Below, in pieces: positions 7,703 through 13,832 of a stretch of 42,929 bases of DNA (its first letter is position 1; every line of letters begins with the position of its first letter). Under the pieces are notes generated by a model that did no database searches, was not told where the DNA came from, and worked only from the letters and a program-made list of their open reading frames with translations. The DNA lies in the NCBI GenBank assembly GCA_018816525.1, contig JAHIVV010000077.1, positions 1 through 42,929 of the forward strand, in the 5' to 3' direction. A program made the translations under genes and the position numbers. The stretch is from Elusimicrobiota bacterium (lineage in GTDB: Bacteria; Elusimicrobiota; Endomicrobiia; CG1-02-37-114; XYA2-FULL-39-19).

Positions 7703-8548
7703 TTAAACATACTTTTTTAACAGTTCCTGCATTTTTGCTGACCGAATATTTCCGTCAATTTTTCCTTGATGGAAATTTTCGTCAAAAGTAGTGTCTTCCT
7801 TTTTGTAAAATGCTCCCAGAGCAATAGGAACATTCATATTATAATCCCATTCTCTTAATTTTTTCATAGCATCGTCAAACCTGCCGGTGTTATGATCAAC
7901 CAGTTCATAAGCTTTTTTATTGTAGTAATCGTACATATTGAAAAATGTCACACAGACCTGGAGCACATCCACAAGAGAAAATCCTTTATGCAAAATTGCT
8001 TCCTTAAATAATTTTTTCATGAGTTCCATGTTATTGGAAAAACCCCTGGCAACATATGTTGCACCGCTCGCAAGAGCAATTTCTAACGGATTTATAGGAA
8101 GTTCTTTTGAACCTCCGGGTGTTGAGCGGCCTTTGTAGCCCAGAGGTGAAGTTGGGGTATATTGGCCGGTTGTAAGGCCGTAGACCCGGTTGTTGTGCAC
8201 AATCATGGTGATATCAACATTTCTTTTTGCTCCAAATAACAGATGTTCCAAACCTTCGCCGTAGCAATCTCCGTCGCCGGCAAAACCTATTACTTTCAGA
8301 TCTGGGTTAGCAAGTTTTATAGCTGTTGCAACGGGGACCACTCTTCCATGTAATGAATAAAAACTATTTATATTCAGGTAATCAACTATTTTTGCGTGGC
8401 AGCCGATACCGGAAACTATAACTATTTTCTCTTTTGGAGTGCCTTCTTCAATTAAAGCGTTTATAACAGCTTTTATCGAACCCAAAATTGCAAAATTCCC
8501 GCACCCCGGGCACCATGTATTTTTCGCGCTCGTATTCAGTTCTGTCAT
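7703..8548 (-). CDS. 2-oxoacid:ferredoxin oxidoreductase, beta (TPP) subunit
   Basis: This 281-residue subunit binds thiamine pyrophosphate and a 4Fe-4S cluster. The TPP motif starts at GDGD (91-94) and ends at NN (119-120). Four cysteines placed as in KorB/PorB-type subunits (C13 and C16 in WCPGCG, C50 in GIGC, C199 in LQVCVTF) would bind the cluster. It decarboxylates a 2-oxoacid together with the alpha/gamma chain encoded just upstream and passes electrons to ferredoxin. The substrate (2-oxoglutarate, pyruvate or branched 2-oxoacids) cannot be settled by eye; KorB-like is closest. The enzyme class is oxygen-sensitive, which makes its place in a PerR operon sensible. Confidence 0.92.
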   Translation of the reverse strand: MTELNTSAKNTWCPGCGNFAILGSIKAVINALIEEGTPKEKIVIVSGIGCHAKIVDYLNINSFYSLHGRVVPVATAIKLANPDLKVIGFAGDGDCYGEGLEHLLFGAKRNVDITMIVHNNRVYGLTTGQYTPTSPLGYKGRSTPGGSKELPINPLEIALASGATYVARGFSNNMELMKKLFKEAILHKGFSLVDVLQVCVTFFNMYDYYNKKAYELVDHNTGRFDDAMKKLREWDYNMNVPIALGAFYKKEDTTFDENFHQGKIDGNIRSAKMQELLKKYV

Positions 8549-8560
8549 ATATTCACCAAA

Positions 8561-10246
8561 TCAAATCACTTTTTTTAGTTCTGCTTCCAAGCCTTCCAGT
8601 GAAAACGGCCTGCCGTCATATCTTAAAATCATTTTATCGGCTTTAAAACCGTAAGTTCTTACCAGGCGTTCAAGCTGACCGGTTGAATTATTTTCTATAT
8701 AAATCGTTTTTTCTATTCCTTTCAAAGCCTCCCTGAATTTATTTTCTGGAAACGGCGAAAGAACTACCGGCTGGATTACTTTCAACCCAAGTTTTTCAGC
8801 CAGTTCGATACAAACGCCTTTATTAGATCCCCAACAAACCAGGGCGGTTTTAGAATCCTTGTTGCCATAAATCTTTACTGTTTCAATTTTTTCAAGTTCC
8901 TGCGATAAATATTTTTCCTTAAGCAGGCGTTTATCCTGCATCATTTTCGTTATTTCGGGTTCTTCTGTGGTAATTCCTGCTTCATCATGCTCGTAACTAT
9001 TAACTTTTATAACAACGTCCTTTTCAGGGACAAAAGCGAGCGGAGAGATACCAGTTTCGGTAACCTGATACCTTTTATATGCTTGCGGGTTTTTTCTATC
9101 CCACAACAAAGGCGCCAAATCGGGTTTTGAAATAAAACATTTCGAATCTGTATTCAGATTGAAATTTCCTTCACTCAAGGTTTTATCTGTAAGCACAAAT
9201 GACGGTATTTGGTATTTCCACGCAGCGTCGAGCGCAAAAGCGGACCAAAAATATGCTTCATCTGCGTCCCCCGGCGCAACAATAAACCGGGAAAATTCGC
9301 CCTGTCCGGCATTTAGCGCAAAATGCAATTCAGTCTGGCAGGAATATGTAGGCAAACCAGTGCTGGGCCCCGGCCTCTGGCCAAGAACTATCACAACCGG
9401 CAATTCCGCCATCGCTGCAAAGCTCAACCCTTCTGTCATAAGGCAGAACCCGCCGCCGGACGTCGCCACAGCGGCCCTTTTTCCTGCATACGCAAAACCT
9501 GTTGCCATAAGCATCACGGCAATTTCACTTTCAGGATGCACGACTTTGAGGGAAAATTCTTCCGCCTGCTGAGCCAAAAAATGAAGTACTCCTGACGTTG
9601 GTGTCATTGGGTAAGCCAGAAATGCTTCGAGGCCCGCGCTTACAAGCCCGAGAGAGATTGCATCATTGCCCGTTACAACAGGCATAGGAGCTTTTTCGGA
9701 AGCCCGGGATATTTTGTTGTCTGCCTCTTTTGCCTCATCATATCCGCGCCTGGCAATTTTAAGATTCTGCTCAAGTTCTTTGTGAATATTGTTTTTAAAA
9801 ACCTGTTCCAGAATTTCCCATTTTATACCAGCAACTTTGCAAAAACTTCCCAAAATGCAGGAGTTTTTCATTATCGCTATGGCATTTTCTTCTTTAACTA
9901 TTTTAGCAAGAGGTATGCCGGCTGTTTTTAAACCCGGAGGAAAAATCTCAGGCTTTATAATATCTGAATCATAGATAACGCATGTATCCTTTTTAATCCT
10001 ATCCTTATGCAGGTCAATACAATCCTGATTGAAAGCAAGAATATAATCTACATGGTCATAATGCGCGCTGATTTTTCTCTGGGCGCCCCTGATAATAGAA
10101 AAAGTATGCCCTCCCCTTATCAGGGAAGGATAATCACGGTAAACATAGATTTGATACCCAAGCTGATTAATAAGTTTTGCAATAACCAGGCTTGACTGGT
10201 CTATGCCTTCGCCAGCTTTACCGCCGACTAAAACACTTATTTCCAT
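8561..10246 (-). CDS. 2-oxoacid:ferredoxin oxidoreductase, fused gamma-alpha subunit
   Basis: The 561-residue protein joins a gamma domain (about 1-185; GGKAGEGIDQSS, DYPSLIRGGH) to an alpha domain (about 190-561; GNDAISLGLVSAG, YPMTPTSG, HPESEIAVMLMATGFAYAG). This fusion is typical of the KorA-like 2-oxoacid:ferredoxin oxidoreductases. It lies 12 bases before the beta subunit gene. A delta (2x4Fe-4S ferredoxin) subunit is not encoded next to it. The small zinc-ribbon gene just upstream has many cysteines but no ferredoxin pattern, so electrons probably leave to a free ferredoxin. Substrate is unassigned. Confidence 0.93.
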   Translation of the reverse strand: MEISVLVGGKAGEGIDQSSLVIAKLINQLGYQIYVYRDYPSLIRGGHTFSIIRGAQRKISAHYDHVDYILAFNQDCIDLHKDRIKKDTCVIYDSDIIKPEIFPPGLKTAGIPLAKIVKEENAIAIMKNSCILGSFCKVAGIKWEILEQVFKNNIHKELEQNLKIARRGYDEAKEADNKISRASEKAPMPVVTGNDAISLGLVSAGLEAFLAYPMTPTSGVLHFLAQQAEEFSLKVVHPESEIAVMLMATGFAYAGKRAAVATSGGGFCLMTEGLSFAAMAELPVVIVLGQRPGPSTGLPTYSCQTELHFALNAGQGEFSRFIVAPGDADEAYFWSAFALDAAWKYQIPSFVLTDKTLSEGNFNLNTDSKCFISKPDLAPLLWDRKNPQAYKRYQVTETGISPLAFVPEKDVVIKVNSYEHDEAGITTEEPEITKMMQDKRLLKEKYLSQELEKIETVKIYGNKDSKTALVCWGSNKGVCIELAEKLGLKVIQPVVLSPFPENKFREALKGIEKTIYIENNSTGQLERLVRTYGFKADKMILRYDGRPFSLEGLEAELKKVI

Positions 10247-10255
10247 ATAATCCCT

Positions 10256-10486
10256 TTATTGTTTTGCTTCCCACTTGTTATCTTTTGTTTTAGATAATTT
10301 TAGTTTTGCCTGGCATCGCTTTTCTTTACACTCTGGGCATACATTCAGCTCTGCATTATATGTCTTTCCGCACTTTTTGCAGATATTAATCTTTTTCCGG
10401 CACGGTTCGCAGAAAACCGGTTCATAACAGCTCATTTCAAGCTCATTTTCGCAAAACGGGCATTTGCATTTTTCTTTCTTTTCCAT
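10256..10486 (-). CDS. Small multi-Cys zinc-ribbon protein
   Basis: This 76-residue protein has eleven cysteines, mostly as CxxC pairs (C9/C12, C26/C29, C36/C39, C50/C53) plus C7, C20 and C58. It looks like a double zinc ribbon, though iron binding of rubredoxin type is possible. The longer open frame starts inside iscU, so I chose the ATG at 10486, where the protein begins MEKKEKCKC; the iscU stop is at 10489, two bases away. I do not recognise a named family. Its place between iscU and the oxidoreductase suggests a metal- or electron-handling role in the same operon. Confidence 0.75.
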   Translation of the reverse strand: MEKKEKCKCPFCENELEMSCYEPVFCEPCRKKINICKKCGKTYNAELNVCPECKEKRCQAKLKLSKTKDNKWEAKQ

Positions 10487-10488
10487 AG

Positions 10489-10866
10489 TTATTTCACCAA
10501 TTTCTTTTTGTAATCTTCTATCGCTTTGTGAAGAGCGTCGGCGCCAAGATTTGAACAATGCATTTTATTTGGAGGAAGCCCGCCAAGTTCCTGCGCAACC
10601 GAGGCATTTGTTATTTGCATGGCTTCATCAAGTGTTTTACCTTTCGCCATCTCAGAAACCATTGACGATACCGCTATTGCCGCTCCGCAGCCGAACGTTT
10701 TAAATTTTACGTCTTCAAGCCGGTTATCCTTTACTTTAATATAGAACGTCATCATGTCCCCGCAAACCGGGTTTCCTATTTCGCCTTTGCCGTCAGCGTT
10801 GGGAATTTCGCCTACATTCCTTGGGTTTTGAAAATGGTCCATTACCTTTTCAGAGTAGAAAGCCAT
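10489..10866 (-). CDS. iscU: Fe-S cluster scaffold protein IscU/NifU-N type
   Basis: The 125-residue scaffold carries the three cluster cysteines C35 (NPVCGD), C60 (FGCGAAIA) and C104 (MHCSNL), with the conserved D37. It accepts sulfur and iron to build 2Fe-2S clusters in the cytoplasm. The classical LPPVK chaperone-binding motif is not present; the matching segment reads GLPPNKMHC, as in NifU-like proteins of anaerobes. Its ATG directly follows the stop of the iscS-like gene, so the two are surely cotranscribed and probably form a complex. The partner lacks the PLP lysine, so the source of sulfur is an open question. Confidence 0.95.
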   Translation of the reverse strand: MAFYSEKVMDHFQNPRNVGEIPNADGKGEIGNPVCGDMMTFYIKVKDNRLEDVKFKTFGCGAAIAVSSMVSEMAKGKTLDEAMQITNASVAQELGGLPPNKMHCSNLGADALHKAIEDYKKKLVK

Positions 10867-12102
10867 CTAAACCTCCTCATGTTCGTGTTCATAATCCGTA
10901 CCGGGGCCCGCCTCCTGCCGTTTTCCAGTTTTTTGGAAATACGCATAAAGGGGCGACATATCACGCAGCCTCTTTACTATCGGCGGAAATTCTTTTAGTA
11001 TAAAATCAATATCATCTTCTGTTGTGTATTTTGACAAAGTCATCAAAACGGAACCTTGCGCAACAGCTGTATCCATTTTAGTTGCAGCCAGTACATGCGA
11101 CATCTTTAGGGCTTTGGAAGTGCATGCAGACCCGCTGGTCACATAAATTCCCTTTTGATCCAGGAACAGTAACATTCCTTCGCCTTCAATAAATTCTATG
11201 GAAAAATTTACATTATTCGGCAGTCGTTTTACCGGATGTCCATTAAGATAGGAATATTCTATATGCTTTGGCAGCTGTGAAATCAATTTATCGCGCAAAG
11301 AAATAAGTTTATCAAAATTTTGCGCCATTTCTTTTTTAGCAATTTCAGCCGCTTTACCCAAACCCGCTATCGCGGGAATATTTTCAGTGCCGGCGCGCCG
11401 GCCGTTTTCCTGTATGCCGCCGTCAATTTGAGGTATCACTCTTGTTCCTTTTTTCATATAAAGCGCCGCGGCGCCTTTCGGGCCGTAAAATTGCGTTCCT
11501 GACAAGGTCAGCAAATCAACGCCCAGTTTATTCACATCAACAGGAACCGTTCCAACCGTACAAACAGCGTCAACATGAAAGATTATTTCTTTTTCATGGA
11601 TTATTTTTGAAATTGCTTCAATATCCTGCACAGTTCCGATTTCTGGGTTCGCATGCTGGATTGAAACAAGAATGGTATCCGCTTTGATGGCATTTTTTAC
11701 GTCTTCAGGCGAAATTAAACCATATTTGTCTACAGGAAGATAAGTTACCGTGAATCCTGCCTGTTCAAGCCTTTTGGCGGAATAAAGCACGGAAAAATGT
11801 TCTATGCCGGAAACAATTATGTGCCCCTTAGGGCCTTTTTGTTTATAGGCTTCTGCCGTCCCTTTTATAGCCATGTTATTTGCTTCCGAAGCGCAGGAAA
11901 CAAAATATATTTCATTTTCTTTTGAACCGATTAAATCCGCAATCTGTTTGCGAGCTAAATCAAGCGCGTCTTTTGATTTTGCGCCTATAGAATGCATGCT
12001 CTGCGCATTGCCATAGTTTTCCTTCAGGTACGGAAGCATCTCGTTCAGCACTCGCTCGTCAATTCTTGTGTTTGAATGATTATCCAGATAGATTTCTTTC
12101 AT
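10867..12102 (-). CDS. IscS/NifS-like protein lacking the PLP lysine
   Basis: The 411-residue protein aligns by eye with class IV/NifS-type cysteine desulfurases: YLDNHSNTRID start, SEANN (72-76), H102 in IEHFSV, D178 in HVDAV, and the mobile-loop cysteine C327 in SGSACTS. In the PLP-lysine motif SGHKxxGPKG the sequence reads SGTQFYGPKG, so Thr203-Gln204 replace His-Lys; I confirmed this in the nucleotides near 11490-11510. The usual Gln of DAxQ is C181. The Arg that binds the substrate carboxylate (RFSLG) is replaced by L353 in VLMTLS. It is therefore unlikely to be an ordinary desulfurase. Archaeoglobus IscS also lacks the lysine and was reported inactive while lending a cysteine to the IscU cluster (from memory). 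Adjacent to iscU. Confidence 0.9.
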   Translation of the reverse strand: MKEIYLDNHSNTRIDERVLNEMLPYLKENYGNAQSMHSIGAKSKDALDLARKQIADLIGSKENEIYFVSCASEANNMAIKGTAEAYKQKGPKGHIIVSGIEHFSVLYSAKRLEQAGFTVTYLPVDKYGLISPEDVKNAIKADTILVSIQHANPEIGTVQDIEAISKIIHEKEIIFHVDAVCTVGTVPVDVNKLGVDLLTLSGTQFYGPKGAAALYMKKGTRVIPQIDGGIQENGRRAGTENIPAIAGLGKAAEIAKKEMAQNFDKLISLRDKLISQLPKHIEYSYLNGHPVKRLPNNVNFSIEFIEGEGMLLFLDQKGIYVTSGSACTSKALKMSHVLAATKMDTAVAQGSVLMTLSKYTTEDDIDFILKEFPPIVKRLRDMSPLYAYFQKTGKRQEAGPGTDYEHEHEEV

Positions 12103-12255: not shown

Positions 12256-12387
12256 TTATTTTACTTCCTTCATCGGTTTTTTGCAGCAATCTTTCGGTGT
12301 TTCTGACGTTTTGCCGCAACATTCGCATTTATAAACTTTCTTTTTCTCCGGCGTACATTCTTTTCCGCAACCGCAATCGCATCCCAT
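12256..12387 (-). CDS. 43-residue cysteine-rich metal-binding-like protein
   Basis: A short gene of 44 codons starts at ATG 12387, with AAGGAG eight bases upstream. The product begins MGCDCGCGKEC, then has CECCG (C21, C23, C24) and DCC (C34, C35): nine cysteines in 43 residues, with many lysines and no hydrophobic core. This is metallothionein-like in composition, but I cannot assign it to a named family. Coding is supported by the ribosome site, the spacing from nfu (17 bases) and the place inside an Fe-S/oxidative stress operon. It could store iron, zinc or copper, or carry clusters or sulfane sulfur; all of these are inference. Confidence 0.75.
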   Translation of the reverse strand: MGCDCGCGKECTPEKKKVYKCECCGKTSETPKDCCKKPMKEVK

Positions 12388-12404: not shown

Positions 12405-12626
12405 TTATATTGCCACTACTTCTTTTACTTCAGGCACTTCTTCCTTTAATACCTGTTCTATCCCCATCTTTAAGGTCATCTGACTCATCGGACAATGCCC
12501 GCACGCGCCTGTTAATTTAACTTTTACAACACCATCCTTGCTTACATCTACCAGCTCAACATTCCCGCCGTCCATTTGTAATGCCGGCCTTACTTTCGCT
12601 AACGCCGCTTCCACCTTCGCTTTCAT
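12405..12626 (-). CDS. NifU C-terminal-domain (Nfu) Fe-S carrier
   Basis: This 73-residue protein is a stand-alone NifU-C domain with the cluster motif C42-x2-C45 in GACGHCPMS. Such Nfu proteins carry 4Fe-4S clusters as homodimers and hand them to target enzymes. I chose the ATG at 12626 because AGGGGAG lies six bases before it; a longer frame beginning at 12653 overlaps hrb. With IscU and the IscS-like protein it forms an Fe-S assembly group inside the PerR operon. Confidence 0.92.
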   Translation of the reverse strand: MKAKVEAALAKVRPALQMDGGNVELVDVSKDGVVKVKLTGACGHCPMSQMTLKMGIEQVLKEEVPEVKEVVAI

Positions 12627-12639
12627 AGCTTCTCCCCTT

Positions 12640-13347
12640 TCAGATCTTTTCAAATTGGTCTTTCTTTACTCCGCAAACCGGGCAAACCCACGTATCAGGG
12701 ATCTGCTCGAATGCAGTTCCGGGATTCACTCCGGAATCAGGATCACCCTTGTCCGGGTCATAGATATAACCGCAAATGGTACATTTATATTTTGCCATCG
12801 CCTTTCCCCCTTGTTCCTTTTTATCAGCTTCCTTTATATTAGCTGGCGTTATGTAAGTCGGCGCAGTTTTTGGTGACTTGCCGCCTTTAACATCACGATA
12901 AATAGTATACGTCATCGGTTCATTTTCACTAAGTATTTCAGCGCCGATAATCTTACCAACAAAAATTGTATGCGTACCAACATCAAGACTATTAATAACT
13001 TCTGCTTCAAAACAACCAATTGCAAAATCAAGAACTATTGGGGCGCCATTCAGCCCTGATTTATATTTTACATCTTTGAATTTATCTATTGTGCGGCCTG
13101 ATTTAAACCCGAATGTGCCAATAAAAGGCATAGGCGCATCCTTTGAAAGAACTGAAACCGTAAAAACCTTGCTTTCCTTTATATACTCCCAGGTAAGGTT
13201 TTGTTTATTTACACTGATTGCAATAGTCGGGGGTTCAGCAGTCACCTGGAAAACAGTGTTAGCTATTTGGCCATTGAATTTATCGCCTTTTTTTGAGCTG
13301 ACAATATATATACCGTAAGAAATTTTATATAGTGCTTTTAGCTCCAT
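12640..13347 (-). CDS. hrb: Flavin reductase-rubredoxin fusion (high-molecular-weight rubredoxin)
   Basis: The 235-residue protein has an FMN-binding flavin reductase-like domain (about 1-160) and a complete rubredoxin at the end (184-235) with CTICGY (C189, C192) and CPVCG (C222, C225). The same domain order is known from Moorella Hrb, which transfers electrons from NAD(P)H to FprA for NO or O2 reduction. It directly follows perR. An internal Shine-Dalgarno-like stretch before Met184 could also give free rubredoxin (see findings). FprA and rubrerythrin in the same operon are the likely electron acceptors. Confidence 0.93.
12796..12810 (-). promoter_or_regulatory. Possible internal ribosome site for free rubredoxin
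   Basis: On the minus strand the stretch GGGGGAAAGGCGATG puts a purine-rich ribosome site seven bases before the in-frame Met184 codon of hrb. From that ATG the remaining 52 codons encode exactly one whole rubredoxin domain, beginning [11 protein letters not shown] like natural rubredoxins. Only the sequence match is seen; its use is inferred. Confidence 0.45.
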
Positions 13348-13359
13348 CTTTTACCTTCG

Positions 13360-13758
13360 TCATAAGCAATTTTTGCAAATACCTTTATAGTAACCATGCA
13401 GTTCTTTGATTTTATGCCCTTGGATGTTCCCTTTTTTAAAATGTTCGCACTCAACCTTCAAATCAAGTATCTTGCCGCATTTTTCGCAATAAAAATGATG
13501 GTGCGACATGACATTTGAATCAAACCGTGTTTCTTTGCCGGTAATAATAATAGGAAGTGCCACGCCATTTTCAATTAAAGAATTCAGGGTATTGTAAACT
13601 GTTGTTTTTGATATAGTAGGAATATCTTTTTTCATTACTTCATAGATTATATCTACAGTAGGGTGTTCCTTGTTATCTTCAAGATACTTAAGGATTTTTA
13701 AACGCTGGTACGTCGGCCTGATACCTTTTGATTCTAATAGTTTTTTAACTTTTTCCAT
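13360..13758 (-). CDS. perR: Peroxide-responsive Fur-family repressor PerR
   Basis: This 132-residue Fur-family protein has a winged helix followed by a dimer domain. With the ATG at 13758, the residues that bind the regulatory metal in B. subtilis PerR (H37, D85, H91, H93, D104) all line up at a constant offset: H32, D80, H86, H88 and D99. The Asp at the last place is the mark used to tell PerR from Fur. The structural zinc cysteines are C91/C94 and C128/C131. It heads the long operon down to rbr, and a perfect palindrome lies at its own promoter, so autoregulation is likely. A TTG six codons earlier (13776) is open but covers the GAGG site. Confidence 0.93.
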   Translation of the reverse strand: MEKVKKLLESKGIRPTYQRLKILKYLEDNKEHPTVDIIYEVMKKDIPTISKTTVYNTLNSLIENGVALPIIITGKETRFDSNVMSHHHFYCEKCGKILDLKVECEHFKKGNIQGHKIKELHGYYKGICKNCL

Positions 13759-13777
13759 GTTTTTATTTTCCCTCAAT

Positions 13778-13803: not shown

Positions 13804-13832
13804 ATTTTATACAATTGCTTTATATTTGTCAA
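13804..13832 (-). promoter_or_regulatory. Sigma70-type promoter of perR operon
   Basis: On the minus strand TTGACA (13827-13832) and TAAAAT (13804-13809) are spaced 17 bases apart. The start would be near 13797, so the PerR-type palindrome lies in the first bases of the message. Confidence 0.8.

Follow-up and report, generated by a model that had tools for sequence, protein, structure and literature searches.

The window, by which we mean the whole stretch of 42,929 nucleotides analysed here, carries a gene for an IscS homologue that lacks the lysine binding pyridoxal phosphate (PLP). An iscU gene lies directly beside it. The features of this part of the window, all on the minus strand, are as follows.

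7703-10246, minus strand: 2-oxoacid:ferredoxin oxidoreductase genes, downstream of the iscS-iscU cassette
10256-10486, minus strand: double-zinc-ribbon-like protein ('ZnR') of 76 aa, beginning just past the iscU stop
10489-10866, minus strand: IscU scaffold (NifU_N, TIGR03419) with all ligands present
10867-12102, minus strand: lysine-less IscS homologue of 411 aa, with Q204 at the PLP lysine, C181, T203, P153 and L353, and with H102, D178, T239 and C327 kept
12259-12387, minus strand: cysteine-rich ORF of 43 aa (MGCDCGCGKECTPEKKKVYKCECCGKTSETPKDCCKKPMKEVK) upstream of iscS, its ten cysteines arranged in short clusters
12405-12653, minus strand: NifU C-terminal (Nfu-type) domain protein (PF01106)
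12640-13347, minus strand: flavin reductase-rubredoxin fusion (PF01613, PF00301)
13360-13776, minus strand: Fur-family regulator, PerR or Fur (PF01475)
13804-13832, minus strand: promoter-like site TTGACA-17-TAAAAT, 5' of the Fur-family gene, matching the consensus at 11/12 positions

The genes for the Fur-family regulator, the flavin reductase-rubredoxin fusion, the NifU C-terminal domain protein, IscS, IscU and the zinc-ribbon protein are co-directional, and no minus-strand terminator-like site was found within 10.2-14.05 kb. A preliminary description of this DNA had spoken of a PerR operon. The Fur-family regulator may be either PerR or Fur. The promoter-like site is a candidate only, as such sites were no more frequent in the region than expected by chance. 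From its domain, the NifU C-terminal domain protein is likely a cluster carrier. The cysteine-rich ORF has a similarity match, in the same gene order, at locus L006. The 2-oxoacid:ferredoxin oxidoreductase genes occupy the position held by DsrE2 and TusA in sister genomes.

The iscU gene begins directly after the iscS stop, so the two genes adjoin as first described, and its product is intact. It retains Cys35, Asp37, Cys60, Lys101, His103 and Cys104, comprising the three cysteines, the aspartate and the LPPxKxHC motif of the family, and scores 208.8 bits against TIGR03419 (cut-off 187.9). Lys101, which contacts IscS, is conserved. The closest solved relative of this IscU is that of the Archaeoglobus fulgidus IscS-IscU complex.

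Active-site residues of the IscS homologue

The IscS homologue is encoded by an uninterrupted ORF (10867-12102, minus strand) with an ATG start. We mapped each position onto E. coli IscS, whose sequence we had confirmed with PDB 1p3w. Q204 stands in for the PLP lysine K206, C181 for the glutamine of the DAxQ motif (Q183) and L353 for the substrate-binding arginine R354. Unchanged are H104 (H102 in the window protein), D180 (D178), S203 (S201), T243 (T239) and the loop cysteine C328 (C327). Every residue listed in the preliminary description was thus correct, and two further losses had escaped it: N155 is P153, and H205, the histidine of SGHK, is T203.

The protein has the class V aminotransferase/IscS fold (PF00266: 243 bits, cut-off 21.5) and yet lacks both the Schiff-base lysine and the substrate-binding arginine of a catalytic IscS or NifS. 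Among the NCBIfam models it is nearest to NifS and stays under every curated cut-off shown: TIGR03402, the NifS/IscS equivalog, gave 491.5 bits against a cut-off of 530.75, and the IscS models fell even further short of theirs. An AlphaFold2 model had a mean pLDDT of 88.5, with values below 50 in the cysteine loop (326-332). Its best PDB match was A. fulgidus IscS (4hvk; TM 0.97 by target length, 0.87 by query). The protein ends in GTDYEHEHEEV, a His/Glu-rich tail that looks metal-binding; its pattern TGxRxxAGPGTDYxHxH (10870-10929, minus strand) is conserved in the Elusimicrobiota-type subclade only.

Several trivial accounts of the missing lysine were considered and discarded. A frameshift or assembly error, which according to the preliminary description would undo its proposal, is ruled out by the intact ORF and by the many homologues sharing the loss, and a decaying pseudogene by strong conservation and the linkage to iscU. 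As for a substitute lysine, K80, K209 and K333 are conserved in the family (as is K91 where that column is filled), and none of them lies at the PLP position; K209, in the GPKG motif, is Gln, Arg, Pro or Leu in some lysine-less members.

A bacterial clade of lysine-less IscS proteins

Scanning 84,980 species genomes, we obtained 80 loci, 49 without the lysine and 31 canonical. The lysine was likewise absent from 29 homologues from relatives, and because all these proteins share the loss, chance or error is excluded as its cause. In place of the lysine we found Gln, Val, Leu, Pro, Met, Ser and others. The clade extends over at least 12 phyla according to MAG labels, which are reliable only as far as the binning: Elusimicrobiota, WOR-3, Desantisbacteria, Latescibacterota, Chloroflexota, Actinomycetota, Nitrospirota, Thermodesulfobacteriota, Planctomycetota, Nitrospinota, Firestonebacteria, Coatesbacteria, Bacillota and others.

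Conservation within the family is selective. The loop cysteine is kept in all 104 lysine-less proteins covering its column, H102 in 105/105 and D178 in 103/105, and T239 is nearly invariant as well. The column of E. coli R354 holds Leu or Val in most lysine-less rows, against Arg in 81 of 82 canonical rows. The C-terminal segment RLRDMSPLY is conserved. The zinc-ribbon gene occurs at 45 lysine-less loci and at no canonical locus, the former spanning Elusimicrobiota, Actinomycetota, Chloroflexota and one Clostridia MAG. Among 199 Elusimicrobiota genomes at least 90% complete, ~53 gave a match stronger than 1e-140. This count is by score; residues were inspected for the fetched loci only. A second copy is present in all of these ~53 but one, and the remaining genomes have only weaker, canonical-like matches. 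At two Nitrospirota loci (L065 and L071) the lysine-less iscS is followed by tusA, and no iscU was detected in the fetched flanks.

The preliminary description had proposed a family alignment and tree as a check. In a tree built with five active-site columns masked, the bacterial lysine-less proteins grouped in a single clade, with bootstrap/SH-aLRT support of 100/99. Those of archaea, which are of the A. fulgidus type and share the losses, carry Asp at the lysine position throughout and make up a second clade (100/99); canonical proteins lie between the two. A single clade of both was not recovered in the best tree. Forcing them together cost 17 log units and was not rejected by the AU test (p=0.282), nor in another AU test of the same union (p=0.204); the best trees keep them separate. 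The likeness of the bacterial and archaeal proteins may thus be convergent.

The best-known counterpart is A. fulgidus IscS (PDB 4eb5, 4eb7, 4hvk, 4r5f), to which the preliminary description had already compared the protein. That enzyme has no desulfurase activity owing to a Lys-to-Asp replacement and lends one of its cysteines as a ligand to the cluster on IscU (PMC7585200); the ligand is Cys321 (PMC9769115). The comparison holds: the solved protein reads DATA, SSND and GTLLLTLG (Q to A, K to D, R to L) and so has lost the same three residues, with the loop cysteine kept and iscU adjacent, all as in the window. As in many bacterial relatives, a DsrE gene adjoins it. Differences are that it has Asp at the lysine position, where bacterial members have Gln (or Val, Pro, Met, Leu), and that it retains Asn155, which is Pro in the window protein. 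In the best tree it also falls in the separate archaeal clade, and the zinc-ribbon partner and the His-rich tail are seen only with bacterial members. IscS1 of Methanosarcina acetivorans likewise lacks the catalytic lysine, is encoded with IscU and has been proposed to act like A. fulgidus IscS; it is archaeal, and we liken it to the window protein by its published description (PMC7585200).

Canonical IscS and NifS proteins, such as E. coli IscS (1p3w) and a second copy in the host genome, share the fold, the loop cysteine and the IscU-binding C-terminal segment, whereas their active site is intact and that of the window protein is dismantled. A minimal ISC system (MIS) was reportedly defined by Garcia et al. 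in 2022. It resembles the window locus in pairing a desulfurase homologue with a scaffold, without a larger ISC set, in anaerobes (PMC12192291). The MIS, however, is described as having a working cysteine desulfurase, while the subunit beside IscU here has lost its catalytic residues and the canonical gene is at another site of the genome. A 'known but little studied subfamily', as the preliminary description put it, is apt for the archaeal proteins. The bacterial clade is apparently undescribed: in open-licence papers we found no earlier report of a bacterial lysine-less IscS or of TusA/DsrE-iscS linkage.

Sulfur supply and the proposed role of the lysine-less protein

Genes for the sulfur carriers TusA and/or DsrE, their identity checked by Pfam, were present at 39 of the 49 bacterial lysine-less loci and at none of the 31 canonical loci of the same scan, the latter coming mostly from Eggerthellaceae and Clostridia. 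A same-genome control, which answers that sampling bias only, found them beside 0/20 canonical-type copies whose genomes carry a lysine-less one too. In archaea the counts were 21/22 lysine-less against 0/8 canonical loci, with flank lengths that differ among loci (1.5 kb for relatives and archaea). Fisher values overstate the independent support for these associations, because the tree has just two changes in the lysine state. The sulfur-binding CPx[P/H] motif is intact in each of the 63 TusA hits. Gene orders include iscS-iscU-ZnR-DsrE2-TusA, Rrf2-TusA-iscS-iscU, TusA-DsrE-iscS-iscU and iscS-TusA, and this variety indicates that the linkage was kept or remade. A DsrE-family gene (L155:1138-1488) lies directly 5' of the crystallised A. 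fulgidus IscS, and TusA lies beside the lysine-less gene in a congener (G001) and in a sister genome (G002, L006-like). In the largest related family, to which the Endomicrobiaceae-type genomes belong, most members keep the lysine-less IscS without TusA.

The host genome (1.6 Mb, 98.6% complete), which its nearest named relatives place within Elusimicrobiota, contains neither TusA nor DsrE2 as far as the family searches found. The preliminary description had suggested looking for another complete IscS or SufS, and one further close IscS-type gene is indeed present, on contig C3, with a complete and canonical active site (SAHKINGPKG, DAVQ, SLRFSLG). SufB/D gave no match in the genome, and the same family search was positive in 14/14 control genomes. 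As the IscU beside the lysine-less IscS is also the only IscU found, it constitutes the recognised scaffold system of the cell. Other genomes with a lysine-less copy show a similar complement: 27 of 28 have a second IscS-type gene, nearly all copies fetched have the lysine, and canonical-type copies have IscU nearby in only 2 of 20 cases.

Starting from the observed residue losses, their conservation across the clade, the intact adjoining IscU and the canonical IscS elsewhere in the genome, we consider it likely that the non-catalytic paralogue now serves IscU specifically, as a subunit that docks on it and provides a cluster ligand. This role is assigned by analogy with A. fulgidus, whose clade does not group as sister to the bacterial one in the best tree. 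Having lost the Schiff-base lysine, the substrate-binding arginine and the Asn, Gln and His neighbours of PLP, the protein should be unable to strip sulfur from cysteine, as in the A. fulgidus complex. It would still dimerise, and the retained His102, Asp178 and Thr239 suggest that PLP may persist, held non-covalently. IscU would be bound through the conserved C-terminal helix, a region required for IscU binding in E. coli IscS (PMC2854127). Cys327 would then swing into the IscU site. There it would either be the fourth ligand of a nascent [2Fe-2S] cluster, a role with published support in A. fulgidus alone, or hand on persulfide generated elsewhere.

In most relatives the sulfur probably arrives through a TusA/DsrE persulfide relay. 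Since the lysine-less protein should not make persulfide itself, a neighbouring TusA is more likely its donor than its acceptor. Extended to the whole family, this reading has Cys327 take persulfide sulfur from DsrE or TusA and pass it to IscU, with sulfane sulfur and not cysteine as the source and with the relay lost and replaced in the window lineage. We find this extension slightly easier to doubt than to accept. The linkage in bacteria and archaea, its differing arrangements, the conserved TusA motif and the carrier genes at the A. fulgidus, G001 and G002 loci all argue for it, as does the docking of E. coli TusA on IscS with Cys19 about 4 Å from Cys328 (PMC2854127). The few changes of the lysine state on the tree weaken it, as does the lack of both TusA and DsrE2 in the window genome, the direction of sulfur flow is assumed, and the Endomicrobiaceae-type relatives imply that TusA is unnecessary for retention of the lysine-less protein. 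More tentative still is a scheme of cysteine-independent assembly common to bacteria and archaea, which we lean against: the dead IscS would accept persulfide and ligate the cluster, DsrE/TusA would supply it with sulfane sulfur, the zinc-ribbon protein would be an accessory in many bacteria, and window-type lineages would have lost the relay and use sulfide.

For the window genome, which lacks TusA and DsrE2 matches, this leaves the orphan canonical IscS or free sulfide as donor. External sulfide was the source favoured in the preliminary description, and it stands as one candidate among several. That the lysine-less IscS and IscU build clusters from sulfide in a reducing cell, with Cys327 only stabilising an intermediate, seems rather doubtful to us. 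H2S does rescue Fe-S assembly in E. coli without iscS, in a manner requiring IscU (PMC13015791), and sulfide is the Fe-S sulfur donor in Methanococcus maripaludis (PMC7585200), but the same genome has a complete IscS and the lysine-less family is linked to persulfide carriers. An equal measure of doubt attaches to a division of labour in which the orphan canonical IscS would use cysteine to supply persulfide to IscU or to Cys327 of its partner, perhaps within a heterodimer, which is conjecture. It would fit the canonical-type second copies found in nearly all lysine-less genomes, usually without an IscU of their own. Canonical IscS also supplies sulfur for other purposes, tRNA thiolation among them, and these alone could explain why it is retained. 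Finally, the near invariance of H102, D178 and T239 could reflect a PLP enzyme repurposed for another reaction unrelated to clusters, which we regard as very improbable given the lack of any conserved Schiff-base lysine, the lost substrate arginine and the near-constant linkage to iscU. The retained PLP-ring residues could nevertheless serve some other PLP reaction, which counts against the docking-subunit reading, and 4EB5 was reported with PLP (PMC9769115).

A desulfurase is usually regarded as the entry point of ISC-type systems, and in this clade the body of IscS and its cysteine persist without the catalysis. The source of sulfur in A. fulgidus-type assembly becomes directly testable, with the TusA/DsrE linkage naming a candidate donor. 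In many anaerobe genomes, the label 'cysteine desulfurase' given by automatic annotation is probably mistaken. One Coatesbacteria protein (L036:5953-7158) reads SGHR, DAVQ and SLQ, with Lys replaced by Arg, Arg by Gln and DAVQ kept; by these residues it is a possible intermediate, or early stage, of active-site loss.
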